A stretch of DNA of 32,159 nt, taken from contig JABLUY010000303.1 of NCBI GenBank assembly GCA_013306675.1, positions 1-32,159 of the forward strand, written 5' to 3'. Every line of letters begins with the position of its first letter. Position 1 is the first letter of the stretch. A program made the translations under genes and the position numbers. Positions 1,525 to 31,585 of the stretch are shown here, in pieces. The notes under the pieces were generated by a model. The model worked only from the letters and a program-made list of their open reading frames with translations, searched no databases and was not told the DNA's origin. Source of the stretch: Thraustochytrium sp. TN22. Its lineage: Eukaryota > Sar > Bigyra > Thraustochytrida > Thraustochytriidae.

Positions 1525-4500
1525 TTAGGTCTCCGGGCAAATGGCCGCACGGTCGTACGAGTACGTGAAACTGGCAGTGAAGCCAAAGACAGTGGCACAG
1601 CTGGCCTGAACGTTGGTCTGGGGCGGGCATGCGTCTTCGTCGAGGGTGCACTGCTCGAGGCGGACCGGGTAGATGAAGAGCGGCTCGGTGTCGGCAGAGT
1701 ACGGGACGGTGAGCTGAAAGTCGCAGGGCATGTTGTTGGCCGGGACGAAGAAGGCCTCCTGCCAGCCGGAACCATCGTCGTACTGCACGGAGATGCCCGT
1801 GACGCAGGGGTCGGTGTCGGAGCGAGGGCCGTACTCGGAGATGGAGGCGGCGCAGAAGCTCGAGACGGAGAAGCGGTCGCCGGCGGAGCCGTACTTTTCG
1901 ACGAGGGCGTAGTAGGAGTCGTAGTCGCCCTCGGCGACGCTGGAGGTGCAGGCATCGACAAAGTCGGAGACGGACTGGCCGGGGTCGCGTCTGGGCGAGA
2001 GCGCAGTGCAGACAGCCTTGACCCAGTTGCGGCCCTGGCGCTTGGGCTTGTTGGAGGTGATGGCGTCGACGCAGTCCTCGACGGTGGTGTCGATGTTGGC
2101 GGTGGTGCACCAGGCCTCGATGCCCCTGGGGATTTGATCGGGCGTGCAGGCGCCAGCCCAAAAGGCCTTGCAGGCGGCGTGATCCGGCGCGAGGTCGCGA
2201 GTCTGGCAGGCCTCGCCGAAGGCGTTGCTGGTGTAGCTGCCACCGTAGGCCTGGAGGTCAGCGGTGGCGCAGTAGCCGCCCTGGAGGTCGGGGGAGCGGT
2301 CGGTGGTTTCCACGAGCGCCTCGATGTTGAGGCGGTAGCCGCCGACAAAGTCGGAGGTGACGGCCTTGGTGTTGAGGCAGGTGACGCGGAAGAAGATGCC
2401 GGTGTTGGGGTCGGTGACAGCCCAGACGCGCTCATCGTCGCCATAGCCATCCTCGCCGCCGGGCGTGTAGGTGAGGCCGAGGGCCTGGTCGAAGGGCGTG
2501 CCGGAGACGGTGGACCAGCCCGGGTACGAGGCGGAGTCGTCGTAGCAGTCGACGGGGTCGAGCGTGTAGGAGCCGCTGGCCGTGACGAGGTTCATTTGCG
2601 TGAGGATGGAGCGAGAACCGGTGTAGAAGCTGAGGTTGAAGACTGGATCGGCGAGCGTGTAGAAGAAGACCTCGTTGTCGCCGGAGAGGTCGTAGTTGGG
2701 GTTGCAGGGCGAGCCGTAGGCGCCGACGTTGCCGCGGTTGGAGCCGACAAGGTCCGCGATGGTCTGGTTCCAGACGCAGGGGTTGCCCTCGTGGTCAGAG
2801 AGGGCGGTGCAGGTGTCCGGGTCGGCGAAGCAGGTTGCGTCGCGCGAGTCGCAAATGATGAGCTTCTGGCGCGAGGCGTCAAAGGCCTGGCCAAAGGGGT
2901 CGCCCCAGATTTGGCAGTTCTGGCAGCAGGTGCCGTTGGTGTATCCGGAAGCGTCGTTCGGGGTGAAGTCGAGGACCACCTGCAAGCCGTCGTTGTCAGC
3001 GAGGTTGTCGCTGGAGCAGTAGTCCTCGGCAGCTTGGTCGCAAAAGGGCGTGTCGACAATGAGCTCGCGGCATGTCTGCGTGCCTGGCTCGGTGTCTCCA
3101 AAGTCGAATTCGCAGCACTCCGCGCAGAAGCCCCGAAAGTAGGTGGTGGTGTCGGTGCTCGTGCAGGCGACGGGCGGGGGCTGCACGTCGTCCGAAATGC
3201 AGTCCTCGCACCCAGGTTCGAAGAAGCCGCACTGGGCGCGCCGGAAGGTCATGTCAATGTTCATCTCGGCCAAGGGCGAGCACTTTTCGTCCTGGGAGAG
3301 GCAAGAGGCGCCGTAGCCGCAGCGGCGCAGGCGAAAGGCGTAGAGGAAGAGTTCCGGGAAGTCCTCGCCGTTGGCGGCAATGTTGGCGCCATCGCAAGGC
3401 GGCTGGTCCGGGGAAAAGTAGAAGAGGGGCGTCCAGGTGCCCTCGATGTTGACCTCGAGGACCATGCCGGGGGCGCACTCGAGATCGTCCGGGATGGTGG
3501 TGTAGGCGGAGAGGTCCGAGGCGCAGGTGGGCTCGGAGGCGTCCCACTGGTGCGGGATGAGGCTCGTGTAGGTCTGGTTCCAGGCAATGTAGCCGTCCTC
3601 CTCGAGCATGGTGAGGCAGGTGACGACGTCGTCGGCTTGCGCGTTGGAGCCGTACGGGTTGACGGAGTTCATCTGGCAGGCGTAGGTGGCCCAGGCGAGC
3701 GCGTTGGTCTCGTCGTTGCCGGCGCGGATGTCCTCGATGCAGGTGTCCACCATGTCTGCGTAGGTGCCGGCGCCGCTGGAGGCCTGCGTGTTGCTGAGCT
3801 CGGCGGTCTCGCACCAGTACTGCTGCCAGGCCGGGAGCGAGCGCTCGGTGCAGGCCTCGTTGGTGAGCGTCTTGCAGGTCATGACGATGCTGGGCAGCTG
3901 GCGCTCGAGGCACTGGTAGTGCGTGAGGTCGCGCATCTCCACGTTGGTGCCCTGGATGCCCTGGGAGTCGAGCACGCCGGTGAAGCAGAAGCCGTCGCCG
4001 TCCGTGCGGTTCTGCGTATCGGTGAGGTTGAAGACGTCGATGCGCGAGCGCGTGGCGTTGATGGCCTTGGTGCAGACGACGTCGGCGTAGATGCCGAGCG
4101 TGTCGTTGGCGATGTGCCAGTGGATCTCGACGTCGTACGGCGTGGTGACGGACCACGCGGCCGGCACGCCGGAGGCGCCGTTCGGGAGGCCCCAGGCGGC
4201 GCCGGCGCCGGCGGCGCCCACGTCGCGGGGGTCGTAGTCGAAGCAGGTGTCGGAGTTGAGCGAGTACTTGCCGTCGAGGCCGTCGATGCTGAGCATGAAG
4301 TCGGTCTGGACGCCGCGCTCACCGACGAGCGTGGACACGGAAAAGCCGTCCACGTCCATCATGGTGAGCTCCAGCTGGCCGCTGACGCTGTAGTCGGCCT
4401 GGCATGGCGAGCCGTCCTCGAGGTTGCTCGTCCACCACGGGTAGTTGAGGTTGCCCTTGAGCCACTTGCACCGGTTGCCGGCGTGGTCGAACTGCTGGCG

Positions 4501-4971
4501 GCAGATCTCCTGCTCCATCTTGCAGTCGCCCGTGAGGTTGCGGCCGTCGCATTCGATCAGCACGTCGCGCGAGCCGTCAAATGCACGGCACAGCGGGTCG
4601 CCGTAGCACATGCACTTTTGGCAGCACGAGACGTCCACGTCGGGGTACACGATGTCCACGTCAAAGGTCACGACGCTCGACGACGACGGCTCAAACGCGG
4701 CGCACCCGCCGTCGGCTTCATTGCAAGCGGGCTCGTTCACCACCCACACGCTGCAGAGCGGATCCACGTCCGCGAACGCCGACTGCAGCACGTTGCCGCA
4801 GCACTGGCCCGTGCTCACGCTCAGCGTGTCGCACCCGGACGCCGTCGGCCACGTCAGCGCCTCCGCCACCACCGAACACGTGGTCGTGTCCGTGCCAGGG
4901 CCGGTCACGGGCTGCGCGCTTGCGCTCGCAGCCAGCGCCGCCGCGCTCCCGAGCACCGCCGCGAGTTTCAT
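1525..4971 (-). CDS. Secreted Cys-rich twin-GDP repeat protein, paralog 1
   Basis: 1,148 residues. The signal peptide is MKLAAVLGSAAALAASASAQ, with cleavage probably after residue 20. I count 68 cysteines and nine N-glycosylation sequons. Two homologous halves run from about 45 to 590 and 600 to 1148. Half A has CCQKCMCYGDPLCRAFDGS at 116-134 and half B has CCQNCQIWGDPFGQAFDAS at 682-700. Both halves then carry in the same order a GSPC block, a segment ending in TDF or TQM, a (S/T)L-x3-C-x-D block, a V(V/T)C strand, W-x4-C blocks and a PPCD or MPCD loop near the end. C-x-x-C-x3-GDP-x4-FD resembles the opening of vWF type D domains; the rest matches nothing I can name. No transmembrane helix or GPI tail is visible, so it is probably exported and disulfide-rich. 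It is the most diverged of the four paralogs. The start is fixed by the signal peptide. Function unknown; matrix, mucus or adhesive protein is inference. Confidence 0.9.
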   Translation of the reverse strand: MKLAAVLGSAAALAASASAQPVTGPGTDTTTCSVVAEALTWPTASGCDTLSVSTGQCCGNVLQSAFADVDPLCSVWVVNEPACNEADGGCAAFEPSSSSVVTFDVDIVYPDVDVSCCQKCMCYGDPLCRAFDGSRDVLIECDGRNLTGDCKMEQEICRQQFDHAGNRCKWLKGNLNYPWWTSNLEDGSPCQADYSVSGQLELTMMDVDGFSVSTLVGERGVQTDFMLSIDGLDGKYSLNSDTCFDYDPRDVGAAGAGAAWGLPNGASGVPAAWSVTTPYDVEIHWHIANDTLGIYADVVCTKAINATRSRIDVFNLTDTQNRTDGDGFCFTGVLDSQGIQGTNVEMRDLTHYQCLERQLPSIVMTCKTLTNEACTERSLPAWQQYWCETAELSNTQASSGAGTYADMVDTCIEDIRAGNDETNALAWATYACQMNSVNPYGSNAQADDVVTCLTMLEEDGYIAWNQTYTSLIPHQWDASEPTCASDLSAYTTIPDDLECAPGMVLEVNIEGTWTPLFYFSPDQPPCDGANIAANGEDFPELFLYAFRLRRCGYGASCLSQDEKCSPLAEMNIDMTFRRAQCGFFEPGCEDCISDDVQPPPVACTSTDTTTYFRGFCAECCEFDFGDTEPGTQTCRELIVDTPFCDQAAEDYCSSDNLADNDGLQVVLDFTPNDASGYTNGTCCQNCQIWGDPFGQAFDASRQKLIICDSRDATCFADPDTCTALSDHEGNPCVWNQTIADLVGSNRGNVGAYGSPCNPNYDLSGDNEVFFYTLADPVFNLSFYTGSRSILTQMNLVTASGSYTLDPVDCYDDSASYPGWSTVSGTPFDQALGLTYTPGGEDGYGDDERVWAVTDPNTGIFFRVTCLNTKAVTSDFVGGYRLNIEALVETTDRSPDLQGGYCATADLQAYGGSYTSNAFGEACQTRDLAPDHAACKAFWAGACTPDQIPRGIEAWCTTANIDTTVEDCVDAITSNKPKRQGRNWVKAVCTALSPRRDPGQSVSDFVDACTSSVAEGDYDSYYALVEKYGSAGDRFSVSSFCAASISEYGPRSDTDPCVTGISVQYDDGSGWQEAFFVPANNMPCDFQLTVPYSADTEPLFIYPVRLEQCTLDEDACPPQTNVQASCATVFGFTASFTYSYDRAAICPET

Positions 4972-5007
4972 CGAGCTAAGAGAAAGTAAAGTAAGACAGG
5001 CCGAGCC

Positions 5008-5020
5008 GAGCTAGCTAGAA
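5008..5020 (-). promoter_or_regulatory. TCTAGCTAGC motif upstream of paralog 1
   Basis: The minus strand reads TTCTAGCTAGCTC about 39-48 bases before the paralog 1 start codon. Paralog 3 has TCTAGCTAGC at nearly the same distance (18858-18869). It could be a start-site or promoter element, but only two of the four genes share the spacing. Confidence 0.3.
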
Positions 5021-5246
5021 GCCGAGCAAGCCGAGCAAACCTTGGCGCGCCTTGGCGCCTTGATTCCAGGTCTGCTGCCCTGCCCGTCTTGCGCGCCGCC
5101 TTGCGCGTACCCGGCCGTCACGTGGCCGAGCACGGGCCGCGAGGGAGCGGGCCGACCGACGTCTGCGGCCCGTGCAGTGCGACTGCTCAAGATGGAGGTC
5201 CCCGAGCATTCACTGTCCATGTCTGCCATTGCATTGTCTGGCAAGG

Positions 5247-5282
5247 CAAGTCGCCTGCCAAGTCGCCTGCCAAGTCGCCTGC
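5247..5282 (+). repeat. 12-bp tandem repeat, three units
   Basis: AAGTCGCCTGCC is repeated three times exactly, within the region upstream of paralog 1. Confidence 0.9.
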
Positions 5283-5325
5283 CCGCCGCGGCGCCGCGGC
5301 GCGTGCAGAGTCAAGGCAAGGCGAC

Positions 5326-5426
5326 CGAAGGCAAGGCGAGGCGAGACGCGCGAGGCGAGAGGCGAGAGGCGAGAGGCGAGAGGCGAGAGGCGAGAGGCGA
5401 GAGGCGCGAGGCGAGAGGCGAGAGCG
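5326..5426 (+). repeat. 7-bp GAGGCGA microsatellite
   Basis: GAGGCGA is repeated about ten or more times with a few interruptions (GAGACGCGC near 5343, GCGCGAG near 5404). It lies 350-450 bases upstream of the paralog 1 start codon. Copy number is likely to vary between isolates. Confidence 0.9.
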
Positions 5427-5820
5427 ACCGTGTCCAGATGGCTGGCACGGCCTGGCCGACGCGATCGCGATCGCAGCCGGAACTGGCTCGTCCGAAGGGG
5501 GGCGACTCAGGCTGCTTCGGCTGGAAGCGAGAAAGTGCGGGATGGCGGCCGGGAAGGTAGGGAGCCGAGGATGTACACGGCCTGGACTCCGCCGGCCCGG
5601 GCTGCCTCGAGGAGGGAGTCGGCCGCGGCACCGTGACGCACGCGGGCAGGAGGAAAAGGGCGACGGCTGCAAAGCGCGAGTGCAACTTGAAGAGTGGACT
5701 CGGAATGGGTCAAGCCTGACGCAGTGAGTGGCACCTCACTGGCAGAGTCAGCCTGAGCGTTGCTTTCATCTCATACACGGAGAGTTCTTATTAGCTAGCT
5801 ACTAGCTAGCCTAGAGGCAG

Positions 5821-8800
5821 CTAAGCGTCGCCATCGGTGGGGCAACCAAGGCCATTGGCGTCGTAGGAATAGGTAAGGCTCATGGTGTAGCCAAAGGTGC
5901 TGGAGCAGGTGGCAAGAACGTTGGTGTTGGAGGGGCAGCCATCTTCGGAGTCGTCGAGGGTGCACTGCTCGAAGCGCGTGGGGTAAATGAAGAGCGGGCG
6001 CGTGGCGGACGAGTACTCGATGGTGAGCCCGTAGTCGCAGGGCATGTTGTTGGAAGGCACGAAGAAGGCCTCCTGCCAGCCGGAGCCGTCATCGTACTGG
6101 ACGGAAACACCCGAGACGCAGGCGTCGGTGTCGGAGCGCGGGCCGTAGTCAGAAAAGGACGAGGCACAGAAGCTGGACACGGAGCCGCGGTCTCCGGCGG
6201 AGCCGTACTTGAGGACGATGGCGTAGTAGGAGTCGTAGTCGTCGACGTCAACCATGGCGACGCACTCGTCGACAAAGTCGGAGACGGACTGGCCCTCGGC
6301 GCGCTTGGGCGAGAGGGCCGTGCAGACGGCCTTGACCCAGTTGCGGCCCGTGCGGGCGGAGCGGCGGTTGGTGATGCTGCTGACGCACTTGTCGACGGTC
6401 ATGTCGGTGTTGGCGACGGTGCACCAGGCCTCAATGCCCTTGGCAATCTGGTCGGGCGTGCAGGCGCCGGACCAAAAGGCCTTGCAGGCAGCATGGTCCG
6501 CGGCGAGGTCCTGCGTCTGGCAGTCCTCAGCGACGGAGTTGTTGGTGTAGGAGCCGCCGTAGACGCGGAGGTCCGAGGTGGCGCAGTATCCCTCCTGCGA
6601 GGTGCGCTCGATGGCGGTGGGGTCGACAAGGTTCTCAATGTTGAGGCGGTAGCCACCGACAAAGTCAGCGTTGACGGCGCGCGAGTTGACGCAGGTGACG
6701 CGGAAGAAGACGCCGGTGTTGGGCTCGTAGACGGCCCAGGCCCGCTCGTCGTTGCCGTAGCCATCCTCGCCGCCAGCGGTGTAGGAGAGCTCGAGGGCGT
6801 CGCCGACCGGAGCGCCCGAGACGGTGGTCCAGCCGGGGTAGTCCATGGACTCGTCGTAGCAGGAAACCGGGTCAAGCGTGTAGGAGCCGGACGGGGTGAG
6901 GAGGTTCATCTGGGTGAGGATGGAGCGCGAGCCGGTGAGGAAGCTGACGCTGAAGGAGTCGTCCGGGAGCGAGTAAAAGATGACCTCGTTCTCGCCGGAG
7001 GCGGCGTAGTTGGGGTTGCACGGGGAGCCGTAGGCGCCGGTGTTGCCCCGGTTGGAGCCGATGAGGTCGGCGATGGTCTGGTTCCAGACGCAGTTGTTGC
7101 CGCCGTGGTCAATGAGCGAGGTGCAGAGGTCCGCGTCGGCGAAGCAGGACTCGACGCGGGAGTCGCAGACGATGAGCTTCTCGCGCGAGGCGTCAAAGGC
7201 CTGGCCAAAGGGGTCGCCCCAGATCTGGCAGTCCTGGCAGCAGGCGGTATCCATGAAGCCGGACTCGGGGGGCGTGAAGTTGAGAACGAGCTGAAGGTCG
7301 TTGCCGCGCAGGTTGGAGTTGGAGCAGTAGTCGGCAGAGTCGTCGTCGGAGACGTCGCAAAAGGGCGTGTCGACGACGAGCTCGCGGCAGGTCTGGTTCT
7401 CGCGTGCGTCGGGGACGTAGTTGATGAGATCGCAGCACTGCTCGCAGAAGCCGACGAAGTAGGTCTCGGTGCCGGAGTCCGTGCAGACCTGAGGCGGCGG
7501 CGAGGACTGGTCGCGCGTACACTCGGTGCAGTCGCCGACGTTTTCGACACAGGGGGCGCCGGTGAAGGTAATGTCGACGTCAACGGTGGGGAGCGGGCTG
7601 CACTCGGTGCCCTCGACCTGGGCCAGGCACTTGGCCTCGAGACCGCAGCGGCGCATGCGGATCTGGTAGGAGAAGAGCTGCGGCATGTCGCGGCCGTTGG
7701 CGATGATGTCGGCGTCGCTGCAGGGCGGCGACTCGGGCGGGAAGTAGAGCACGGGCGTCCAGGTGCCGTCGACATTGGCCTCGACCATCATGCCGTTGGC
7801 GCACTCGACGTCGTCGGGGATGTCCGTGTAGGCGGAAATGTCGGAGACGCAGTTGGCGTCGGTGGGCACCCACTGGTGCGGGATGATGCCGCGGTAGGTC
7901 TCGTTCCAGGTGATCCAGCCGTTCTCGGCGATGACGTCGAGGCACTGCGCGACGTAGGTCTCCTGCGCGTTGGAGCCGTAGGGCAGCTGCGAGTTCATCT
8001 GGCAGGCGTAGGTGGCCCAGACCTCGGAGTCGCCGGAGCGGATCTCGTCCAGGCAGGTGTCGACCATGTCGGCGTAGGTGCTGCCCGTGGCCTGCGTGTT
8101 GGCGAGCTCGGCCGTCTCGCACCAGTACTGCTGCCAGGCGGGCAGGGTGCGCTCGTAGCAGACCTCGTTGGTGAGCGCCTTGCACGTGGTGATGACGGTG
8201 GGCAGCTGCTGGTTGAGGCACTCGTAGTGGGTGATGTCGCGCAGCTCCACGTTGGAGCCGGCCAGCTGCTCCGAGTTGATGGTGCCCGTGAAGCAGAAGC
8301 CGTGACCGTCGGTGCGGCCCTGGGTGTCGGTGAGGTTTTGCACGTCGATGCGCGAGCGCGAGGCGCCCACGGCCTTGGTGCAGATGACGTCGGCGTAGAT
8401 GCCAAGCGTGTCGTCGCCAACGTGCCAGCGGATCTCGACGTCGTTGGGCGTCGTGACGCTCCACGAGTCGGGGATGCTCGAGGTGGTGTCCGGCAGCGCC
8501 CAGGCGCCGGCCGCCTGCGTCGTGCCGACGTCGCGCGGGTCGTAGTTGAAGCAGTCGTCCGAGTTGAGCGAGAAGGTGCCGCCCACGCTGGGGATCTCCA
8601 GCATGAAGTCGGTCTGCACGCCGCGCTCGCCCACGAGCGTGGACACCTTGAAGTCCTCGACATCGATCATGACGAGCTCCAGCTGGCCGCTGACGTTGTA
8701 GTCGGCCTGGCACGGCGAGCCGTCCTCCAGGTTGCTCGTCCACCACGGGTAGTTGTCGTTGCCCTTGAGCCACTTGCAGCGGTTGCCGGCGTGGTCGTAC

Positions 8801-9261
8801 TGCTCGCGGCAAATCTCCTGCGACATCATGCAGTCGCCCGTGCGGTTGCGGCCGTCGCACTCGATGAGGATGTCGCGCGAGCCGTCAAAGGCGCGGCACA
8901 GCGGGTCGCCGTAGCACATGCACTTTTGGCAGCACGTCTCGTCCACGTCCGGGTAGCTCACGCTCACGTCAAAGACCACCTGGTGCGTGATGTTGGGCTC
9001 GAAGTTGTCGCAGCCATCAAAGTTCGGGTTCGTGCAGTACGCCGCCTCCAGCGCCCACGTGCTGCACACCGGGCCCTCTTGCTCGCTCAGCACGTTGCCG
9101 CAGCACTGCTGCGAGTCCACGCTGAACGACCCGCACCCTGGGATCTGCAGCCACGAGAGCACCTGCGCCGTCACGCCGCACGTGCCGGTCTGCGCCTCCG
9201 CCGCGCCCGGCAGCCCGGCCGCGGCCAGGGCCGCGGCCACGGCCACCACGCTCTTCATCAT
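5821..9261 (-). CDS. Secreted Cys-rich twin-GDP repeat protein, paralog 2
   Basis: 1,146 residues. The signal peptide begins MMKSVVAVAAALAAAGLPGA and probably ends at AEAQ, residue 24. The two-half layout is that of paralog 1: CCQKCMCYGDPLCRAFDGS at 110-128 and CCQDCQIWGDPFGQAFDAS near residue 690. Cysteine spacing is conserved throughout, with NQT, NRT and NLT sequons in matching places. The C-terminus GCPTDGDA is identical to that of paralog 4, its closest relative. The start is set by the signal peptide; the second Met is equally possible. It lies 849 bases from paralog 1 on the same strand, as expected for tandem duplication. No membrane anchor is visible, and the predicted location is extracellular. 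Function unknown beyond the vWD-like motif. Confidence 0.9.
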   Translation of the reverse strand: MMKSVVAVAAALAAAGLPGAAEAQTGTCGVTAQVLSWLQIPGCGSFSVDSQQCCGNVLSEQEGPVCSTWALEAAYCTNPNFDGCDNFEPNITHQVVFDVSVSYPDVDETCCQKCMCYGDPLCRAFDGSRDILIECDGRNRTGDCMMSQEICREQYDHAGNRCKWLKGNDNYPWWTSNLEDGSPCQADYNVSGQLELVMIDVEDFKVSTLVGERGVQTDFMLEIPSVGGTFSLNSDDCFNYDPRDVGTTQAAGAWALPDTTSSIPDSWSVTTPNDVEIRWHVGDDTLGIYADVICTKAVGASRSRIDVQNLTDTQGRTDGHGFCFTGTINSEQLAGSNVELRDITHYECLNQQLPTVITTCKALTNEVCYERTLPAWQQYWCETAELANTQATGSTYADMVDTCLDEIRSGDSEVWATYACQMNSQLPYGSNAQETYVAQCLDVIAENGWITWNETYRGIIPHQWVPTDANCVSDISAYTDIPDDVECANGMMVEANVDGTWTPVLYFPPESPPCSDADIIANGRDMPQLFSYQIRMRRCGLEAKCLAQVEGTECSPLPTVDVDITFTGAPCVENVGDCTECTRDQSSPPPQVCTDSGTETYFVGFCEQCCDLINYVPDARENQTCRELVVDTPFCDVSDDDSADYCSNSNLRGNDLQLVLNFTPPESGFMDTACCQDCQIWGDPFGQAFDASREKLIVCDSRVESCFADADLCTSLIDHGGNNCVWNQTIADLIGSNRGNTGAYGSPCNPNYAASGENEVIFYSLPDDSFSVSFLTGSRSILTQMNLLTPSGSYTLDPVSCYDESMDYPGWTTVSGAPVGDALELSYTAGGEDGYGNDERAWAVYEPNTGVFFRVTCVNSRAVNADFVGGYRLNIENLVDPTAIERTSQEGYCATSDLRVYGGSYTNNSVAEDCQTQDLAADHAACKAFWSGACTPDQIAKGIEAWCTVANTDMTVDKCVSSITNRRSARTGRNWVKAVCTALSPKRAEGQSVSDFVDECVAMVDVDDYDSYYAIVLKYGSAGDRGSVSSFCASSFSDYGPRSDTDACVSGVSVQYDDGSGWQEAFFVPSNNMPCDYGLTIEYSSATRPLFIYPTRFEQCTLDDSEDGCPSNTNVLATCSSTFGYTMSLTYSYDANGLGCPTDGDA

Positions 9262-11599
9262 GCTCCTCCCTCGTCAGGCTCCGTCTGCAGGCCTGTCTTG
9301 CTTTTCGGGGTTTGCTTTGGCATCAGCGGCCACGAGCTCCGATCTAGGATACAAAGCAGGCTCCGTGATGCAGCCGGAGCCGCGCCGCGGCAGCCCGCCA
9401 TGTTGGCCCGCTCCCGATCCGCGCCCATTTCCTGCGCCCTCGCGCGCCATCCGCCCCCCCCCCCGCCCACAGCGCGGGCCCGCCGCGGCCGCGCGTGATG
9501 CCAGTGCGATCGAGGGCGGCGGCGCCGACTGGCCCGGCGAACGACGCGCGACTAAAAAACAAACAACTTGACTGCGAGGAGAGCTTCATGCCGTCAAAGC
9601 TTTGCTGCGCCGCGGCGCCGTCACGGAGAGGGCCATGCAAGCCGCACGCGCGGACGAGGCCGCGGACGAGGCGCCATCTTGGCCCGTGATCATGTGGTCT
9701 GAGCGCGTGGGCTGCCAGGGTTTCAACGTGAGCGCATGCTTTGCGACGCTCAGGATGGACAGGTTGTGCGCCGGCTGCACGCGACATGGCAGCCTGAGCC
9801 CAGCCAGGCCCCAAGGCGGCAAGGAAGCGCTGGCTCGCTCTGCCTGCCTGCCCGGCTACCAGGTGGCAAGGCGAGTCGGCCGCGGATCGCCGTGACGGGC
9901 AGTTCGGCGCGAGTGCGCAGAACGAAGAGCCCAACGCCGCAGAAAAAAATAAATGTACGAGGCAGCGGCAAGCGCACTTTTACTGCACGTGGAGGACTCG
10001 GACTGCAAGTGGCCGGGCGGTTTGACAAAGTCCAACTGCGCTTCTCGCACCAGCAAGCTTTGCGCGCCGCGTCGCTTTTGCGCTCCGAGGAGCTGAGCGT
10101 GATCGACGGGGTTTGGTGTGGGCGCAGTGCGGGAGTTGCGTCCCGGCCCGCGAAAAGCGAGTCATTGCTTCTCCTGCTCGACTCTGACCGGGTGGCAATG
10201 GGTGGCCCGGGCGCGGTGTCGCAGCCATCCATCGCGGCCAACGGATGTCCCTGCGCCTCTTGTGCGCTGCACTCCTCGTCATCACCCACAGCAAGACCAG
10301 GCGTCGAATTTTTCGAGCGGCGCTGAGCCCGCAGACGACAAGGAATCCGAGTCCTCGCACAATGAGTCAGCAACGTTTGGGCGCGTAGACGACAATTTGA
10401 ATCAAGCGGCTGGCTCGGGGACCAATGAGCTGGGCTCGAAGCAGGTTAGGTGGCTGTGCGCGCGAAGGGGAACGCCAGGGTCAAACTTCAGGAACTCGTC
10501 CAAACGTTGAATTGGCCAAGGCCGCTTCTGCTGGCGACAATTCGAACTGCCTGCGTTGGCTTTCGAGCGTCGTTGAGCTCGCAGACGACAATGAATCGTC
10601 GCTCGGCGAGGCTCGGCGAGGCTGGCCCTAGAAACTAGGAGTCAGCGACGCTGGGCTCGCAGTCCATGAACTCGTCCAACGTCGAATTGGCCAAAGTCGC
10701 AGCTGCTGGCGGCAATGCGCACTGCGAGGGTAACTCGTAGCCGCACCACGACTACCGCTTGAAGAAAAAGGACCACAAAAACACAGTCTGGAGTTTGGTC
10801 GATGTGTGAAGCGTTTGCCACATTATCTGCATCGCGCCGGTCGTGCTCTTGCCCATGTCCTAGATGCACGCCCCGGTACAACATCTTCGGCACCTTCGTC
10901 GCGCTCAGCGCCATCAACCTTTTCTTAGTCGGCATCGCCGGCGGCGTGCCCTGCACGACGAGTCCGAGCCTTCAGTCGTTTGCATTTCCCCGGCCTCAGC
11001 AAGCCGCATTTCTGGTGTCTCAGCTGAGTCTCGTTCTGCTTCAGCCGAACTTCGAGTTACTAGCTCCGCCGCGCCGAGACTGCCACTAATCAAGAGTCTG
11101 CGGACAGCACATGAGTCAGATGAGGCGGCCTCGGCCAACTCGGCGCCGGACGAGCCTTTGGGCGAGCCCGACGCTGCTGACTCATTGGGCGCCGAGCCAG
11201 CCTCGCCGAGCGACGAATCGTCGCGGAGCGAGTCCGGCTCGGAGCCCTCGTCGTCTGCGAGCTCAGCGACGCCCGAGAGCCAACGCCATGTAAGGGTAGG
11301 GCAGGGCTAGCGCCGCAAGGCGCTCTGGTCTCGCAAGCGAGCGCGCACGTGAGACTGCCTCGAGGGGCAGCGCAATTGAACTTTAGGCCGAGATTTTAGC
11401 GGATGCAAGCTCCGCACTGCCCACCCGGTGGGCGCCAAGCACCGGCGCGCGCTCGCGCACGCCGCGACCACACTCGGTTCCTCAGAGTGCAAGGTCGACC
11501 CAGAGCCTAGGCAAGGGGTGTGAACGATGGTTTTCCCGCGGCCATCATCGACTTTTTTGTAGATCAATGCTGCTTACCACCTGTGGAAAGCTCCGCCGC
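9262..11599. other. 2.3 kb spacer without a supported gene
   Basis: The first few hundred bases must contain the paralog 2 promoter; a run of ten C lies near 9455-9465. I find no intact gene in 9500-11600. Frames such as 10864-11310 (plus) end in a Ser/Glu/Asp/Ala-rich stretch (EPASPSDESSRSESGSEPSS) but have no paralog or domain support. Two related segments, 10494-10556 and 10670-10731, both read NVELAK-(A/V)-A; with CLRWL in the first, they faintly recall ankyrin-repeat phrasing. That is too weak to call. Confidence 0.5.
10494..10731 (+). repeat. Diverged direct repeat pair
   Basis: AACTCGTCCAAACGTTGAATTGGCCAAGGC-type sequence at 10494-10556 recurs at 10670-10731, with about 80 percent identity by eye. 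Nearby segments with GCAGACGACAA(G/T)GAATC at about 10330 and 10578 suggest an older, larger duplication. Confidence 0.6.
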
Positions 11600-12010: not shown

Positions 12011-12029
12011 GTGTCGATCCTCGTCGCGG

Positions 12030-12590: not shown

Positions 12591-12593
12591 CGA

Positions 12594-13080: not shown

Positions 13081-13086
13081 TTCCTC

Positions 13087-13968: not shown

Positions 13969-13969
13969 A

Positions 13970-14054
13970 GTGGTGGCGCACCGAGGCAAAAGAGCCTTGC
14001 AAGCTGGCCCTTGCAAGGCAATGCGCGTTGCCTCTTTTTTCTCTGATCAGACTG
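13970..14054 (+). repeat. Dispersed repeat DR1, copy 2
   Basis: GTGGTGGCGCACCGAGGCA through GAGCCTTGCAAGCTGGCCCT and GCGCGTTGCCTC matches copy 1 closely. It abuts the point where the TIR-like relic's N-terminal homology stops (about 13968). Confidence 0.8.
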
Positions 14055-14094
14055 TCCTCCATGCGTCCTTGCTTCGTTTTCGCTGCGTTTCTGG

Positions 14095-14805
14095 ACGTTG
14101 TGAGAGACGCTGGGAGAGCGAGTGCGAGAGACGTTGTGAGCGATGCTGGGTCTGCGAGCGACGCTGCGAAAGCGTTGCGAGCAACGCTGCGAAAGCGCTG
14201 TGAGCGACGCTGTGAGCGACGATGCGAATGACGCTGTGAGCGACGCTGCGAGCGACGATGCGAAAACGCCGCGAGCGACGCCGCGAGCGACGCTGCGAAT
14301 GACGCTGCAACCGGCGCTGCGAGCGACGCTGCGAATGACGCTACGAGTGACGCTGCGAATGACGCTACGAGTGACGCTGCGAAAGCGCTGCGAAAGCGCT
14401 GCGAAAGCGCTGCGAGCGATGCTGTGAGTGACGCTGCGAGAGCGCTGCGAGAGCGCTGCGAGCGACCCTGCGAAAGCGCTGCGAGCGACGCTACGAGCGA
14501 CGCCACGAGCGACGCTGCGAAAGCGCAGCGAGCGATGCTGCGAGCGACGCTGCGAATGCGCTGCGAGCGATGCTGCGAGCGGCGCTGCGAATGACGCTGC
14601 AACCGATGCTGCGAGCGACGCTGCGAATGCGCTGCGAGCGATGCTGCGAGCGGCGCTGCGAATGACGCTGCAACCGACGCTGCGAGCGACGCTGCGAAAG
14701 CTTTGTGAGCAACGCTGTTCAAGCGCTGCGAGCGACGCTGCGAAAGCGCTGCGAAAGTGTTGCGAGCGACGTTGCAAGCGACGTTGCGAATGACGCTGCA
14801 AACGA
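14095..14805 (+). repeat. Degenerate GCGA(C/A)GCTGCGA minisatellite
   Basis: About 0.7 kb of 12- to 15-bp variants such as GCGAGCGACGCT, GCGAATGACGCT and GCGAAAGCGCT. Longer periods are layered on top; a 71-bp unit starting GCTGCGAGCGATGCTGCGAG at 14560 repeats at 14631 with one difference over most of its length. All frames are open and give ASDAANDAASDAA or QRRSQRRSQ peptides, which I take as artefacts of the repeat. Confidence 0.9.
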
Positions 14806-15366: not shown

Positions 15367-18300
15367 TTAGGCATCGTTGTCTACGCCACCAGCGTTGCAG
15401 CCGGTGGCTTGGGCGTCGTAAGAGTAAGTGAGGGTCATGGCATAGCCAAAGGCACTGGCACAGGCGTGCTTGCTGTTGTCCTCGACGGAGCAGCGATCGG
15501 TGTCAATGGAGCACTGCTGGAAGCGAATGGGGTAGATGAAGAGCGGGCGGTAGGTCTCGGAGTAGGGAATGGTGAGGGCATTGTTGCAGGGCATTTGGTT
15601 GACCGGGATGAAGAAGGCATCGTGCCAGACGGAGTCGACTTTGTACTGGACGGTGAGGCCGGAGATGCAGGGATCGGCGTCATCGACAAGACCGTAGTCA
15701 GCGGGAGAGGATACGCAGGAGTAGGTGGGGTTGTGAACGGAATGGCGGTCGCCAGCGGAGCCGTACTTGAGGACAATGTCGTAGTAGGAGTCGTACTCGC
15801 CGTCCTTGGTAATGGCGGTACACTCCTTGACGAACTTCTTGACGGACTGCCCGGCGGCACGCAAGGGGGCGAGGGCCTTGCAGACCGCCTTGACCCAGCG
15901 CTTGGCCTGGCGCTTGGCGTTGGAGGCGGAGATGGAGTTGACGCATTCGGCGACGGAGGTGTCAATGTTCGCGGAGGAGCACCACTCGCGGATGGCCTTG
16001 GGGATCTGCTCCGGGGTGCAGGAGCCGGCCCAAAAGGCCTTGCAGGCAGAGTGGTCAGGCGCGACGTCCTGGGTCTGGCAGTACTCGCCAATGGAGTTGC
16101 TGGTGTAGGAGCCGCCGTATTTGGTGAGGTCGGCGTCATAGCAGTAGCCATCCTGGAGGTCTGCGGAGCGCTCGAGCGGGTCGATGAGGTTCTCAATGTT
16201 GAGGCGGTAGCTGCCGACATAGCTGGAGGTGACGGCCTTGGAGTTGACGCAGGTGACGCGAAAGAAGATCTTGGCGACGGAGTCGTAGACGGACCAGGCG
16301 CGCTCATTGTTGCCGTAGCCGTCCTCGCCGCCGGCAACGTAGGTGAGGTCCAAGGCATCCTGGACGAGGGTGCCGGAGAGCGTGGTCCAGCCGGGGTAGT
16401 CCATGGACTGGTCGTAGCAGGTGATGGGGTCGAGCGAGTACGTGCCGTTGGCCGTCGTGAGGAGCATTTGCGTGAGGATGGAGCGCGATCCGGTGAGAAA
16501 GCTCATGGAGAAGAAGTTGTCGTCTTTGTCGGTGAGCTCGTAAAAGAGGATCTCGTTGTCGCCGGAGTTTTCGTAGTCGGGGTTGCAAGGGGAGCCGTAG
16601 GCGCCGACGTTGGCGCGGTTGTCGCCGACGAGGTCAGCGACGGTCTGGTTCCAGACACAGTTGTTGTCGCCGTGGTCGAGCAGGCTGCGGCATACGGATT
16701 CGTCAGCGAAGCAGGACGCGACGCGAGCGTCGCAGACGATGAGCTTCTCGCGCGAGGCGTCAAAGGCCTGGCCGAAGGGGTCGCCCCAGATTTGGCAGTC
16801 CCTGCAGCAAGTGTCGTTCTGGAAGGTGATGCCGTCGCTAGCGGTAAAGTCGAGGACGAGCTGGAGGTCGGCGTTGTTGAGGAGGTTGTCGTGCGTGCAG
16901 TAGGGCGCGAGGTCGTCGTCGGAAGCGTCGCAAAAGGCGGCGTCGACATTGAGTTGGCGGCAGGTCTGGTTGTCGTGGTTGGCGAAGCCGTTGAGCTCGC
17001 AGCATTCGGCGCAATAACCGGGCGAGTAGGCGTCGGTGGCCGTATCGGAGCAGATCGTGGGGGGCAAACTGCTTCTGTCCTTGGCGCATGTGTCCTTGCA
17101 CTGGCCGTCGTCCTCGACGCAGGAGAGGCCGGAAAAGCTCAAGTCAAGGTTGATGGCCGGGATGGGGCTGCACTCCTGGGTGAAGGCGAGGCAAGAGGCG
17201 TCGAGGGCGCAGCGACGGATCCGGATGGGGTACTGGAAGAGCAGAGGGTGGCTAGCGCCGGTGGCGATGATGTCGGCGCCGTCGCAGGGCGGGGAGTCGG
17301 GCGGAAAGTAGAGCACGGGCGTCCAGACGGCGTCGGCGGTCATGGCCTCGACGATGAGACCGCCGGCGCAGGAGAGGTCCTCGGGGATGTCGGTGTAGGC
17401 GTAAATGTCGGAGACACAGGAGGCGTCGGTGACGACCCACTGGTGCGGGATGATGCCGAGGTAGGTCTCATTCCAGGTGGTCCAGCCGTTCTCCTGCACG
17501 ACGTCGAGGCAGGCGTCGACGAAGTCCTGCTGCGCCCTGGTGCCGTAGGGGAGCTGCGAGTTCATCTGGCAGGCGTAGGTGGCCCAGGTTTCGGAGCCGC
17601 CGGAGCGAATGTCGGCGAGGCAGTCGTCGACCTTGTCCGCGTAGGTGGTGCCGGTCGCCTGGGTGTTGGCAAGCTCGGCGGTCTCGCACCAGTACTGCTC
17701 CCAGGCGTTGAGCGTGCGCTCGTAGCAGACCTCGTTGGTGAGCGTCTTGCAGGTGAAGACGACGGAGGGGAGCTGGCGCTCGAGGCACTCGTAGTGCGTG
17801 ATGTCGCGCAGCTCGACGTTGGTGCCGGAAACCTGCTCGGAGTTGATGGTGCCGGTGAAGCAGAAGCCGTCTCCGGCGGTGCGGCTCTGGGTGTCGGTGA
17901 GGTTGTGCACGTCGATGCGCGAGCGCGTGGCGTTGACGGCCTTGTTGCAGATGACGTCCGCGTAGAGGCCGAGGTTGTCGTCGCCGATGTGCCAGCGGAT
18001 CTCGACGTCGTTGGGCGTCGTGACCGTCCACGAGGAGGGCACGGCGACCTCGCCGTCCGGCAGCGTCCAGGCTGCGGCGGCGGCGGCCGTGCCGACGTCG
18101 CGCGGGTCGTAGTCGAAGCAGGTGTCGGAGTTGAGCGCGTAGGTGCCGGCGCTGACCTCGAGCATGAAGTCGGTCTGGACGCCGCGCTCGCCGACGAGCG
18201 TGGACACCTTGAAGTCGTCCACGTCGATCATGACGAGCTCCAGCTGGCCGCTGACGTTGTAGTCGGCTTGGCAGGGCGAGCCGTCCTCCAGGTTGGAGGT

Positions 18301-18828
18301 CCACCACGGGTAGTTGAGGTTGCCCTTGAGCCACTTGCAGCGGTTGCCGGCATGATCGAACTGCTTGCGGCAAATCTCCTGCTCCATTTGGCAGTCGCCC
18401 GTGCGGTTGCGGCCGTCGCACTCGATGAGGATGTCGCGCGAGCCGTCAAAGGCGCGGCACAGCGGGTCGCCGTAGCACATGCACTTTTGGCAGCACGTCT
18501 CGTCGTTGTCCGGGTACACCATCGTCAGATCAAAGACCACCTGGTGCGTGATGTTGGGCGCGAAGCTCGCGCAGCCGTCACTGCCAAGGATGGGGTTCTC
18601 GCAGTACGCCTCGTTCAACACCCACGTGCTGCACTCACCCGACGCACCCAGCACGTTGCCGCAGCATTGCTCCGTCGCCAGCTCAATGTCACCGCAGCCA
18701 GCGATGTAGCTCCAGCTCAATGCTGTTGACGTCGCCTCGCATGTTGCCGTCTGAGCTTGGGCCTGCTCTACGGCAGTTGCGAAGAAGCCCAAGATGATGA
18801 GCGTGAAGATCATCGCGCGAAAGTACAT
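15367..18828 (-). CDS. Secreted Cys-rich twin-GDP repeat protein, paralog 3
   Basis: 1,153 residues from the first Met. The signal peptide is MYFRAMIFTLIILGFFATAV followed by EQAQAQ. Starting at Met6 would give 1,148 residues, exactly as in paralog 1, but the Arg at position 4 makes a better n-region, so the first Met is kept. Two halves: CCQKCMCYGDPLCRAFDGS at 112-130 and CCRDCQIWGDPFGQAFDAS near residue 690. Cysteine and sequon positions follow the other copies. The C-terminal half is the more divergent part (for example ITKDGEYDSYYDIV and a Tyr-Ser-Cys insertion near HNPTYSCVSS). It ends NAGGVDNDA with no anchor. It lies 1.0 kb from paralog 4 and 6.1 kb from paralog 2, all on the same strand. 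Confidence 0.9.
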   Translation of the reverse strand: MYFRAMIFTLIILGFFATAVEQAQAQTATCEATSTALSWSYIAGCGDIELATEQCCGNVLGASGECSTWVLNEAYCENPILGSDGCASFAPNITHQVVFDLTMVYPDNDETCCQKCMCYGDPLCRAFDGSRDILIECDGRNRTGDCQMEQEICRKQFDHAGNRCKWLKGNLNYPWWTSNLEDGSPCQADYNVSGQLELVMIDVDDFKVSTLVGERGVQTDFMLEVSAGTYALNSDTCFDYDPRDVGTAAAAAAWTLPDGEVAVPSSWTVTTPNDVEIRWHIGDDNLGLYADVICNKAVNATRSRIDVHNLTDTQSRTAGDGFCFTGTINSEQVSGTNVELRDITHYECLERQLPSVVFTCKTLTNEVCYERTLNAWEQYWCETAELANTQATGTTYADKVDDCLADIRSGGSETWATYACQMNSQLPYGTRAQQDFVDACLDVVQENGWTTWNETYLGIIPHQWVVTDASCVSDIYAYTDIPEDLSCAGGLIVEAMTADAVWTPVLYFPPDSPPCDGADIIATGASHPLLFQYPIRIRRCALDASCLAFTQECSPIPAINLDLSFSGLSCVEDDGQCKDTCAKDRSSLPPTICSDTATDAYSPGYCAECCELNGFANHDNQTCRQLNVDAAFCDASDDDLAPYCTHDNLLNNADLQLVLDFTASDGITFQNDTCCRDCQIWGDPFGQAFDASREKLIVCDARVASCFADESVCRSLLDHGDNNCVWNQTVADLVGDNRANVGAYGSPCNPDYENSGDNEILFYELTDKDDNFFSMSFLTGSRSILTQMLLTTANGTYSLDPITCYDQSMDYPGWTTLSGTLVQDALDLTYVAGGEDGYGNNERAWSVYDSVAKIFFRVTCVNSKAVTSSYVGSYRLNIENLIDPLERSADLQDGYCYDADLTKYGGSYTSNSIGEYCQTQDVAPDHSACKAFWAGSCTPEQIPKAIREWCSSANIDTSVAECVNSISASNAKRQAKRWVKAVCKALAPLRAAGQSVKKFVKECTAITKDGEYDSYYDIVLKYGSAGDRHSVHNPTYSCVSSPADYGLVDDADPCISGLTVQYKVDSVWHDAFFIPVNQMPCNNALTIPYSETYRPLFIYPIRFQQCSIDTDRCSVEDNSKHACASAFGYAMTLTYSYDAQATGCNAGGVDNDA

Positions 18829-18857
18829 GCGCGAGAGCTACGCGCGAGTGCGAAAAT

Positions 18858-18869
18858 GCGCTAGCTAGA
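18858..18869 (-). promoter_or_regulatory. TCTAGCTAGC motif upstream of paralog 3
   Basis: The minus strand has GCTCTAGCTAGC 30-41 bases before the start codon at 18828, matching paralog 1's upstream motif in sequence and approximate distance. A shared 5' UTR or initiator element is inferred. Confidence 0.3.
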
Positions 18870-18975
18870 GCGCGAAAATGCGCGTGAGCGCGACAATGCG
18901 CGAGAGCGCGACAATGCGCGAGAGCGCGACAATGCGCGAGAGCGCGACAATGCGCGAGAGCGCGAATACGCGAAA
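18868..18975 (+). repeat. 18-bp tandem repeat, six units
   Basis: Units GCGCGACAATGCGCGAGA start at 18886, 18904, 18922 and 18940, with variant units at 18868 and 18958. The array begins 40 bases upstream of the paralog 3 start, inside its promoter or 5' UTR. Confidence 0.9.
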
Positions 18976-19838
18976 ATGCGCACGCGCGATTGGTCTTTGC
19001 TGTTGTCTACGGCTGGACACCGCACGACGCGAGTGCATGGCTGGACACCGCGCGACGCGAGCGCGTGGCTGGCACAGCAGCCTGGCTTGGCTTGGTTCAG
19101 CAGCGACGGCATGGCATCGCCTCCTCCTCTTTTTTTGTTATCTTCCGCTTTGACTGCACGGTTGGCAGAGCGTGGCACGGCGTGCACGCGCCAACACGCC
19201 GCGGCCGGCAATGGCGGTCCGCCCAGGCTGCCGACTCCGGCGCACGCACTCGGCCAAACAGTAAAGTCTGCACGCACTGCTGGCTTGCCAGCGCTTCACT
19301 GTCAGCCAATGACTTGAGCGACAGTCACAGCTGATTGTATTCGCGTGCGGAGCGCCGGAGGCACGGCGGTCTGCACGCGCCAAAATGTCTGGCTGATGAA
19401 ATCCGAGTGGAAAGGATACAGACCAAGCACAGCTGACTGATGTGAGCCACGTGACGAAAGCGTCTGCCACGTATACAGACCAAGCCGAAGCACAGCTGAC
19501 TGAGCCATCGGAATCAATGTGCATGCAAGCTCCGTGCGAGCTTGCCGAAGAAATGACGCAGACTGGCAGACCAAGCACAGCTGACTGAGCCATCGGAATC
19601 AATGTGCATGCAAGGTCCGTGCAATACCTGCTTGCCAGCAGCAAACCCGAATCTGGTCGAAGACTGGCCGAGGCTTTTGCTGGCTGAAGGATTTGCGGGT
19701 CGAAGTTTTTGCTGACCGAAGTTTTTGCTGCTGGCTCAAGAGGGCAAGGCTCGCCATGACCATCATCATGTGCTCTGCTCTGCTCTGATCAAACTCATCA
19801 TCACAGCGCTAAAACTTCTTCTTCATCTTCAAGCATCT
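18976..19838. other. Spacer between paralogs 3 and 4
   Basis: No gene is supported. It holds a partial duplication near 19010-19075 (GGCTGGACACCGC(A/G)CGACGCGAG twice) and the 49-bp direct repeat listed separately. Just after the paralog 4 stop codon, the stop region GATGCTTGAA is duplicated (19827-19846 on the minus strand). Confidence 0.5.
19489..19622 (+). repeat. 49-bp direct repeat, two copies plus a fragment
   Basis: AGCACAGCTGACTGAGCCAT and the following 29 bases occur at 19489-19537 and again at 19574-19622 with one difference. A 15-base fragment of the same start lies at 19426-19440. Confidence 0.85.
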
Positions 19839-22800
19839 TCAAGCATCACCATCGGTAGGGCAGCCGACACCAGAGGCATCATACGAGTAAGTGAGACTCA
19901 TGGAGTAACCAAAGGTGGAAGCGCAGTTGGCGAGGACGTTGGTGTCGGAGGGGCAGCCGTCGTCGGAGGGGTCGAGGGTGCACTGCTCGAAGCGAATGGG
20001 GTAGATGAAGAGCGGGCGGTAGGTGGACGAGTAGGGGATGGTGAGAGCCCAGTCGCAAGGCATGTTGTTGGCAGGGACGAAAAAGGCCTCCTCCCAACCG
20101 TTGCCGGCATCGTACTGGACGGAGACACCAGAGACGCACGAGTCGGTCTCGGAGCGCGGGCCATACTCGTCAACCGAGGAGGCACAGTAGCTGGAGACGG
20201 AGAAGCGGTCGCCGGCAGAGCCGTACGTGAGGACGATGTTGTAGTAGGAGTCGTAGTCGTCAGTGTCGACGGAGGAGACGCACTCGTCGACAAAGTCAGA
20301 GACGGACTGGCCGGAGGCGCGCTTGGGCGCAAGGGCCGTGCAAACAGCCTTGACCCAGTTGGCGCCCTCCTTGGCAGCCTTCTTGGCCGTGATGCTGTTG
20401 ACGCACTGGGCCACGGTGGTGTCGATGTTGGCGGTGGTGCACCAGGCCTCAATGCCCTTGTCGATCTGATCGGGCGTGCAGGCACCAGACCAAAAGGCCT
20501 TGCAGGCAGCGTGGTTGGCCGCGAGGTCCTGGGTCTGGCAGTCCTCAGCGACGGAGTTACTGACGTAGGAGCCGCCGTAAACGCGGAGGTCGCCGGTAGC
20601 GCAGTAGCCCTCCTGCGTGGAGCGCGTGACGGCCGTGGGGTCGACGAGGTTCTCAATGTTGAGGCGGTAGCCGCCGACAAAGTCGGTGGTGACAGCCTGC
20701 GAGTTGACGCAGGTGACGCGGAAGAAGACGCCGGTGGTGGGCTCGTAGACGGCCCAGGCCCGCTCGTCGTTGCCGTAGCCGTCCTCGCCGCCGGCCGTGT
20801 AGGTGAGGTCGAGGGCGTCGCCGACCGGGGTGCCGGAGACGGTGGTCCAGCCAGGGTAGTCCATGGACTCGTCGTAGCAGGTGGTGGGGTCGAGCGTGTA
20901 GGAGCCGGACGGGGTGACGAGGTTCATCTGGACGAGGATGGAGCGCGATCCGGTGTAGAAGCTGACGCTGTAGGATTCGTCGGGCAGGGAGTAAAAGAGG
21001 ACCTCGTTCTCGCCGGAGACGTCGTAGTTGGCATTGCACGGGGAGCCGTAGGCGCCGACGTTGCCGCGGTTGGAGCCGATGAGGTCAGCGACCGTCTGGT
21101 TCCAGACGCAGGCGTTGCCGGCGTGGTCGAGGAGCGAGGTGCAAAGGTCCTGGTCGGAGAAGCAGGACTCGACGCGGGAGTCGCAGACGATGAGCTTCTC
21201 GCGCGAGGCGTCAAAGGCCTGGCCAAAGGGGTCGCCCCAGATCTGGCAGTCCTGGCAGCAGGAGGTGTCCTGGAAGCCGGTCTCGGCGGGCGGGGTGAAG
21301 TTGAGCACGAGCTGGACGTCGTTGTTGTTGAGGACGGAGTTGGTGCAGTAGTCCGCGACGGAGTCGTCGGAGACGTCGCAAAAGGGCGTGTCGATGGTGA
21401 TGTCGCGGCAGGTCTGGTTGTCGGCGTAGTCCGGCACGTAGTTGTTCTGCAGGCAGCACTGCTCGCAGTAGCCGGCCGTGTAGGTCTCGGTGCCCGAGTC
21501 GGTGCAGATCTCGGGCGTGGGCATGGTGGTGTCGCGCACGCACGAGGTGCAGTCCTCGCCGCCCTGGGTGCAGACGGCGCCGGAGAAGGTGAGGTCGACG
21601 TCAATCTCCGGGATGGGGCTGCACTCGGTGCCCTCGACCTGGGCCAGGCACTTGGCCTCGAGGCCGCAGCGGCGCATGCGGATGCGGTACTGGAAGAGCT
21701 CCGGGAGGGTGGCGCCCGTGGCGATGATGTCGGCGTCGCTGCAGGGCGGGGATTCGGGCGGGAAGTAGAGCACGGGCGTCCAGGTGTCGTCGCTGGTCTC
21801 GGCCTCGACCATCATGCCGTTGGCGCACTCGGTGTCGTCCGGGATGGTGGTGTAGGCGGAGATGTCCGAGACGCAGTTGGCGTCGGCGGGCACCCACTGG
21901 TGCGGGATGATGCCGCGGTAGGTCTCGTTCCAGGCGATCCAGCCGTTCTCCTCGATGACGTTGAGGCAGGTGGCGACGTAGGACTCCTGGGAGTTGGAGC
22001 CGTAGGGCAGCTGCGAGTTCATCTGGCAGGCGTACGTGGCCCAGGTGGTGGACTCGTTGGTGGCGCGAATGTCGTCCAGGCACGAGGTGACCATGTCGGC
22101 GTAGGTGTCGCCGCTGGCCTGCGTGTACTGGAGCTCGGCCGTCTCGCACCAGTACTGCTGCCAGGCGGGCAGGGTGCGCTCGTAGCAGACCTCGCTGGTG
22201 AGCGCCTTGCAGGTGGTGACAATGCCGGGGAGCTGGCGCTCGAGGCACTCGTAGTGGGTGATGTCGCGCAGCTCGACGTTGGAGCCGGAGAGCTGCTGCG
22301 AGTCGAGCACGCCCGTGAAGCAAAACCCGTCGCCGCCCGAGCGGTCCTGCGTGTCGGTGAGGTTCTCGACGTCAATGCGCGAGCGCGTGGCGCCCACGGC
22401 CTTGGTGCAGATGACGTCGGCGTAGATGCCGAGCGTGTCGTCGCCAATGTGCCAGCGGATCTCCACGTCGTTGGGCGTCGTGACGGACCAGCTGTCCGGG
22501 ATGGCGGACTCGCCCGACGGCAGGTACCAGGCGTCGGCCGCGCCGCTGGCGCCCACGTCGCGCGGGTCGTAGTCGAAGCAGCGGTCCGAGTTGAGCGAGA
22601 AGTTGCCGCCCACGCTCGGGATCTCCAGCATAAAGTCCGTCTGCACGCCGCGCTCGCCCACGAGCGTGGACACCTTGAAGTCCTCGACATCGATCATGAC
22701 CAGCTCCAGCTGGCCGCTCACGGCGTAGTCGGCCTGGCACGGCGAGCCGTCCTCCAGGTTGGACGTCCACCACGGGTAGTTGAGGTTGCCCTTGAGCCAC

Positions 22801-23312
22801 TTGCACCGGTTCCCGGCGTGGTCGAACTGCTGGCGGCAGATATCCTGCGACATCTTGCAGTCGCCCGTGCGGTTGCGCCCGTCGCACTCGATGAGGATGT
22901 CGCGCGAGCCGTCAAAGGCGCGGCACAGCGGGTCGCCGTAGCACATGCACTTTTGGCAGCACGTCTCGTCCACGTCCGGGTAGCTGACGCTAATGTCAAA
23001 GACCAGCTGGTGCGTCGAGTTCGCCTCGAAGCCGTCGCACCCGCCCAGACCCGAGTTCGAGCAGTACGCCGACGCCAGCGCCCACGTGCTGCAGATGGGC
23101 TCGCCCTCCACCGTCGCCACGTTCTGGCTCAGCACGTTGCCGCAGCACTGGTCCGTCTCCAGGCTCAGCGTGCCGCACCCGGCCTGGACGCCCGTCCACG
23201 ACAGCACCTGCGCCGTCACGCCGCACGTGTCCGTCTGCGCCTCCGCCGTCGCCACCGCCGCCGCGGCCAGCACCACGGCCACCGCCGCGGCCTTGCTGGT
23301 CATCATCGTCAT
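19839..23312 (-). CDS. Secreted Cys-rich twin-GDP repeat protein, paralog 4
   Basis: 1,157 residues starting at 23312. The open frame extends 13 codons further to 23351. MTMMTSKAAAVAVVLAAAAV gives a clean signal peptide ending at TAEAQ, so an internal Met is preferred; MMTSK at 23306 is also possible and matches paralog 2's MMKS start. Two halves: CCQKCMCYGDPLCRAFDGS at 118-136 and CCQDCQIWGDPFGQAFDAS near residue 700. It is closest to paralog 2: blocks such as TLVGERGVQTDFMLEIPSVG and the tail GCPTDGDA are identical. No transmembrane or GPI signal is seen, and it is predicted extracellular and disulfide-bonded. Function unknown. Confidence 0.9.
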   Translation of the reverse strand: MTMMTSKAAAVAVVLAAAAVATAEAQTDTCGVTAQVLSWTGVQAGCGTLSLETDQCCGNVLSQNVATVEGEPICSTWALASAYCSNSGLGGCDGFEANSTHQLVFDISVSYPDVDETCCQKCMCYGDPLCRAFDGSRDILIECDGRNRTGDCKMSQDICRQQFDHAGNRCKWLKGNLNYPWWTSNLEDGSPCQADYAVSGQLELVMIDVEDFKVSTLVGERGVQTDFMLEIPSVGGNFSLNSDRCFDYDPRDVGASGAADAWYLPSGESAIPDSWSVTTPNDVEIRWHIGDDTLGIYADVICTKAVGATRSRIDVENLTDTQDRSGGDGFCFTGVLDSQQLSGSNVELRDITHYECLERQLPGIVTTCKALTSEVCYERTLPAWQQYWCETAELQYTQASGDTYADMVTSCLDDIRATNESTTWATYACQMNSQLPYGSNSQESYVATCLNVIEENGWIAWNETYRGIIPHQWVPADANCVSDISAYTTIPDDTECANGMMVEAETSDDTWTPVLYFPPESPPCSDADIIATGATLPELFQYRIRMRRCGLEAKCLAQVEGTECSPIPEIDVDLTFSGAVCTQGGEDCTSCVRDTTMPTPEICTDSGTETYTAGYCEQCCLQNNYVPDYADNQTCRDITIDTPFCDVSDDSVADYCTNSVLNNNDVQLVLNFTPPAETGFQDTSCCQDCQIWGDPFGQAFDASREKLIVCDSRVESCFSDQDLCTSLLDHAGNACVWNQTVADLIGSNRGNVGAYGSPCNANYDVSGENEVLFYSLPDESYSVSFYTGSRSILVQMNLVTPSGSYTLDPTTCYDESMDYPGWTTVSGTPVGDALDLTYTAGGEDGYGNDERAWAVYEPTTGVFFRVTCVNSQAVTTDFVGGYRLNIENLVDPTAVTRSTQEGYCATGDLRVYGGSYVSNSVAEDCQTQDLAANHAACKAFWSGACTPDQIDKGIEAWCTTANIDTTVAQCVNSITAKKAAKEGANWVKAVCTALAPKRASGQSVSDFVDECVSSVDTDDYDSYYNIVLTYGSAGDRFSVSSYCASSVDEYGPRSETDSCVSGVSVQYDAGNGWEEAFFVPANNMPCDWALTIPYSSTYRPLFIYPIRFEQCTLDPSDDGCPSDTNVLANCASTFGYSMSLTYSYDASGVGCPTDGDA

Positions 23313-31523: not shown

Positions 31524-31567
<44 letters not shown>

Positions 31568-31580: not shown

Positions 31581-31585
31581 GGAAA

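Follow-up and report, generated by a model that had tools for sequence, protein, structure and literature searches.

The closest described counterparts of the proteins considered here are the D assemblies of VWF and the mucins, whose domains follow one another in the order vWD-C8-TIL-E. A single vWD occurs in RGMB, an animal signalling protein that differs from the proteins described below in having no module duplication. Here we describe a family of cysteine-rich proteins of Thraustochytrium sp. TN22 (assembly GCA_013306675.1, 37.9 Mb), which includes a tandem array of four genes, g1 to g4, on contig JABLUY010000303.1. The window, i.e. the whole stretch of DNA analysed (32,159 nucleotides), is this complete contig, labelled C226 in the analysis. 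The multi-gene family is real and has no annotation in the libraries searched. According to our preferred reading, to which we give a probability of about 50%, g1 to g4 encode soluble, secreted two-module matrix proteins that are oxidised, exported and tied together by paralogs with a vWA domain or a membrane segment.

The four-gene array and its genomic family

The array comprises the following features:

1525–4971, minus strand: paralog 1 (g1), 1148 residues, signal-peptide-like start and two modules, 68 Cys
3235–4812, minus strand: g1 module 1
1552–3129, minus strand: g1 module 2
5821–9261, minus strand: paralog 2 (g2), 1146 residues, 68 Cys
7558–9111, minus strand: g2 module 1 (structure model built on 7489–9192)
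5860–7449, minus strand: g2 module 2 (model of its C-terminal part built on 5824–6747)
15367–18828, minus strand: paralog 3 (g3), 1153 residues, 68 Cys
17131–18675, minus strand: g3 module 1
15415–17016, minus strand: g3 module 2
19839–23312, minus strand: paralog 4 (g4), 1157 residues, 68 Cys
21579–23156, minus strand: g4 module 1
19878–21470, minus strand: g4 module 2

All four open reading frames (ORFs) are free of internal stops, and each protein begins with a hydrophobic segment (mean Kyte-Doolittle value above 1.7 over 15 residues), no second one being found at this cut-off. When the proteins were cut ahead of the second CC block, BLASTP aligned first with second halves at 24.6–27.9% identity (E 6.6e-33 to 5.4e-42) and like halves of different genes at 58.5–81.4%. 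The initial annotation, made from the window alone, had described four secreted-type, Cys-rich minus-strand genes (1146–1157 residues), each with two homologous halves, and had counted 68 Cys in paralog 1; all of this is borne out. Its order of Cys blocks also stands, except that the tryptophan and cysteine given as W-x-C are adjacent and that PCD varies, three of the eight halves having PCS or PCN instead.

The four proteins are acidic (161–165 D+E versus 55–69 K+R), and S, T and P together make up 19–22% of them overall. Their alignment is invariant in 576 of 1184 columns. Conservation is best along residues 103–222 of g2 (102 of 120 columns invariant), a stretch that equals the vWD-like core of module 1 and perhaps forms a shared binding or assembly surface. 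Besides g1 to g4, the gaps of the window contain no paralog fragment at E below 0.1.

A search of the assembly with g2 returned 21 matches, which fall into 17 open frames on eight contigs. Three added searches with divergent modules gave 27 matches each on the same contigs and, judged by frame lengths, in the same frames. Search counts being lower bounds, the family has at least 17 genes; the array of four is thus correct for the window but understates the family in the genome. An iterated profile search yielded 28 modules of approximately 500–560 residues from the 17 proteins. Eleven proteins have two modules (four in the window, three on C111, two each on C89 and C222) and six have one. Family genes are clustered on six of the eight contigs, in tandem on five and as a divergent pair on one. 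In the two C181 proteins a single module is followed by a linker and a C-terminal vWA domain (Pfam E 4e-7 and 3.5e-9), and the one-module proteins of C299 and C402 end in a single membrane segment with a short tail. Long PT-rich linkers were seen by eye in the paralogs on C89, C181, C299 and C402 only. The C402 paralog (L019 2–5032, minus strand) also has about four Cys-rich repeats of approximately 100 residues between module and membrane segment; they look PAN/apple-like by eye, and the Pfam scan returned no such match.

Clustering on six contigs and the presence of vWA-bearing and membrane-anchored paralogs would also suit a set for cell-cell recognition or for mating and agglutination, in which paralogs diverge for specificity. 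The dN/dS ratios among the window paralogs (0.51–0.69 by NG86), high for a structural protein, point the same way; however, they are uncertain at a third-position GC content of 0.89–0.94, at which NG86 estimates are biased. Moreover, conservation peaks in the vWD-like core of module 1. We regard a recognition role as improbable.

Searches of other libraries returned no relative. Pfam and NCBIfam gave no match for g1 to g4, and apart from vWA in C181 no Pfam family scored above its curated cut-off in the 17 full-length proteins. Sequence searches of the PDB with a single protein and with a profile were likewise negative. The viral and prokaryote collections, the only ones of their kind searched, yielded peptide-pattern matches (49 and 118 stretches, respectively), none confirmed as a relative. 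A single match in a viral structure library (E 0.0004, probability 0.14, root-mean-square deviation 34) is unusable, and the window gave no hit with Rfam or in a tRNA scan. No description of the family was recognised among titles and beginnings of abstracts, by which absence from print is not claimed.

A secreted enzyme or enzyme inhibitor from a family outside Pfam, serving osmotrophic substrate digestion, would agree with the invariant Asp, Arg and Trp positions next to the cysteines and with the ectoplasmic net being held, in a passage of PMC11642839, to serve enzyme secretion and uptake. Yet the Pfam and NCBIfam results above cut-off include no enzyme family, and the parts added in paralogs are vWA domains and membrane segments, not catalytic domains. 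We consider this explanation very improbable.

Likeness to the vWD module

All 28 modules share the opening motif C-x3-GDP-x4-F, the F being a Y in one of them (C402), as well as a cysteine at module position 85, shortly after FDG. The distance from the GDP glycine to this cysteine is 18 residues in 24 modules, as against 19 in the FCGBP domains used for comparison. When a model of g2 module 1 was compared with known structures, rows 1–14 were all vWD-type entries, and the RGMB entries among the matches align over model residues 166–308, outside the motif at about 95–103. In the model, a predicted beta domain precedes a helical part rich in cysteine. For the C-terminal part of g2 module 2 (308 residues, pLDDT 49) modelling gave no fold, and no C8-type domains were among the matches listed.

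Several observations weigh against a vWD relationship. For the CGLCG-N-x-N loop with which a vWD domain ends, CGLCG, CG-x-C and two looser loop patterns have no match in the 17 proteins, and VWD (PF00094) exceeds its gathering cut-off in none of the full-length proteins or 28 single modules. A search for the family across the same genome was likewise empty, but so was its control. Only 18 profile columns match vWD, the remaining profile being at shuffle level, and the g2 module 1 model is itself weak and of low confidence. The idea of an outright vWD protein was dropped on the CGLCG and Pfam VWD results. The same points would be expected if a Cys-rich fold peculiar to this lineage, without relation to vWD, had acquired C-x3-GDP-x4-FD by convergence, in which case the protein would still be structural and secreted. 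We regard such a fold as unlikely, given that the vWD-type structure matches include an alignment outside the motif and that motif and following cysteine are conserved in every module. The initial recognition of a vWD-like motif extends to the whole family and is in line with the structure comparison of the weak model, but not with the rest of the sequence profile. Taken as a prediction, the model supports a vWD-like fold of the N-terminal part, and the family may be described as a strongly altered relative or a look-alike of the vWD module.

Duplications, cysteines and genomic surroundings

A maximum likelihood tree was built for the 28 modules from 548 of 712 columns. In it, one branch sets all 11 second modules apart (support 100/98), a further branch does so for the 11 first modules plus the two C181 modules (99/96), and the C181 modules are sister to the C89 first modules (100/100). 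FastTree likewise separates second modules from all others (support 1.000). The side of a branch equals a clade only where the root falls on the opposite side, and long branches meet in the tree (C222 with the window second modules; C181 with the rest), C402 being a long row. Because second modules part from all others in the module trees, the two-module form appears older than the paralogs; the simplest reading, which the trees support, is that it arose once, ahead of the tandem duplications. The initial annotation had proposed this order from the window alone. The C181 proteins would then have lost their second module or exchanged it for vWA.

Twenty-two Cys columns are invariant over the 28 modules, and five more are kept in 26. 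Counted downstream of the first hydrophobic segment, Cys totals are even in all 17 proteins (68 in nine, 64, 42 and 40 in two each, 56 and 94 in one each), with no Cys within or after the membrane segments of C299 and C402. The proteins are not independent; with one draw per contig, the chance of eight even counts is approximately 1 in 256. Cys 66 and 72 are jointly absent from the same 13 modules. Six modules lack both Cys 310 and Cys 318, and in four of these 314 and 326 take their place; 217 and 229 occur jointly in C222 second modules only. Against simple pairing speak the C222 first modules (five further Cys lost; 76 and 423 gained), a Cys right before the CC block in nine second modules only, single Cys in the C375 pair and in the C299/C402 pair, and Cys 306 of C181 and the C89 first modules, for which the candidate partners, 362 or 363, do not share one alignment column. 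As read from the alignment, cysteines were nevertheless gained and lost mostly in pairs, and those of the modules are probably disulfide-bonded, with 66–72 and 310–318 as predicted pairs.

Several repeats and ORFs surround the genes. A minisatellite with 12-bp and 71-bp units occupies 14152–14799 and 14184–14717, and the long ORFs within 14152–14799 are probably repeat products. Directly downstream of g1 lies a 37-bp repeat (4.2 copies, 1255–1411), whereas an 18-bp repeat (5.5 copies, 18867–18965) is found directly upstream of g3. Upstream of the array, a 486-residue ORF (24510–25970, minus strand) matches Glycosyl transferase family 90 (Pfam E 2.4e-13). ORFs 29161–29997 and 30440–32158 (both plus strand) contain stretches that look similar by eye, have no Pfam match at E 0.01 and are possibly a partial duplicate. 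At the contig end, 2–868 (plus strand) has a weak THOC3-type beta-propeller match (E 7.5e-4), far below the curated cut-off. GC content is 60–72% in 2-kb steps.

Elsewhere in the genome, a 3044-residue frame that matches a PfaA-type synthase (2540 bits including its neighbours in the frame) adjoins a divergently oriented 2083-residue frame with synthase matches, an arrangement that marks thraustochytrids. No light-harvesting match was found in the genome; the search control was positive in Synechococcus.

Proposed role and comparison with described systems

To our knowledge, few of the proteins that make up the walls, scales and ectoplasmic nets of thraustochytrids have been described, and a family of at least 17 secreted-type genes with anchored and vWA-fused members offers candidates. 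Because of the secretion-type start, the likely disulfides, the acidity, the anchored and vWA-fused paralogs and the clustered expansion, the data suggest a protein of the wall, scales, net or mucilage. The initial guess of an adhesive, mucus or cell-wall family fits the secretion-type start, even Cys counts, acidity and paralog types.

Our preferred reading as matrix proteins envisages the following course. In each module of the soluble, secreted g1 to g4 proteins, a beta domain of a diverged, von Willebrand factor type D-like kind would come first, with a Cys-rich helical part and then a small beta part behind it. Oxidised in the endoplasmic reticulum, these modules would become rigid, acidic, disulfide-locked building blocks. 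Once exported to the wall, the scales, the ectoplasmic net or the mucilage, they may bind to one another, to calcium or to sulfated polysaccharide. The vWA-bearing and membrane-anchored paralogs would hold the matrix together and attach it to the cell. The thraustochytrid wall is described, in the relevant part of PMC11642839, as noncellulosic, with sulfated polysaccharide and scales.

A wider proposal, which we consider doubtful, is that labyrinthulomycetes turned a vWD-type D module, either by independent elaboration or by retention from a deep eukaryotic ancestor, into a secreted matrix system (at least 17 genes for soluble two-module, vWA-fused and membrane-anchored proteins) that builds scales or the ectoplasmic net. 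Such a system would be the protist equivalent of mucin/VWF assembly, without the CGLC motif.

Within the same protist group, secreted adhesin-like proteins have likewise been proposed among ectoplasmic-network candidates of Aurantiochytrium limacinum; as presented in the main text of PMC12221091, from which the term 'willebrand' is absent, the adhesin candidate resembles the apple-domain protein MIC4, unlike g1 to g4. Compared with the D assemblies of VWF and mucins, the modules lack CGLCG and a Pfam VWD match, and carry an extra conserved Cys pair and GSPC/GERG blocks; C8, TIL and E domains were not recognised in them. The absence of a long Ser/Thr/Pro region sets the window proteins apart from gel-forming mucins, and an assignment as mucin was dropped on this ground. 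Common to the modules and the D assemblies of VWF, MUC2, MUC5AC and FCGBP are the C-x3-GDP-x4-FD motif with the next cysteine and a predicted beta domain with a helical, Cys-rich part behind it. Like VWF, mucins and FCGBP, the g1 to g4 proteins are large, of secreted type, repeated and Cys-rich. If the vWD fold is true, they would represent a strongly altered mucin/VWF-type building block in a unicellular stramenopile.
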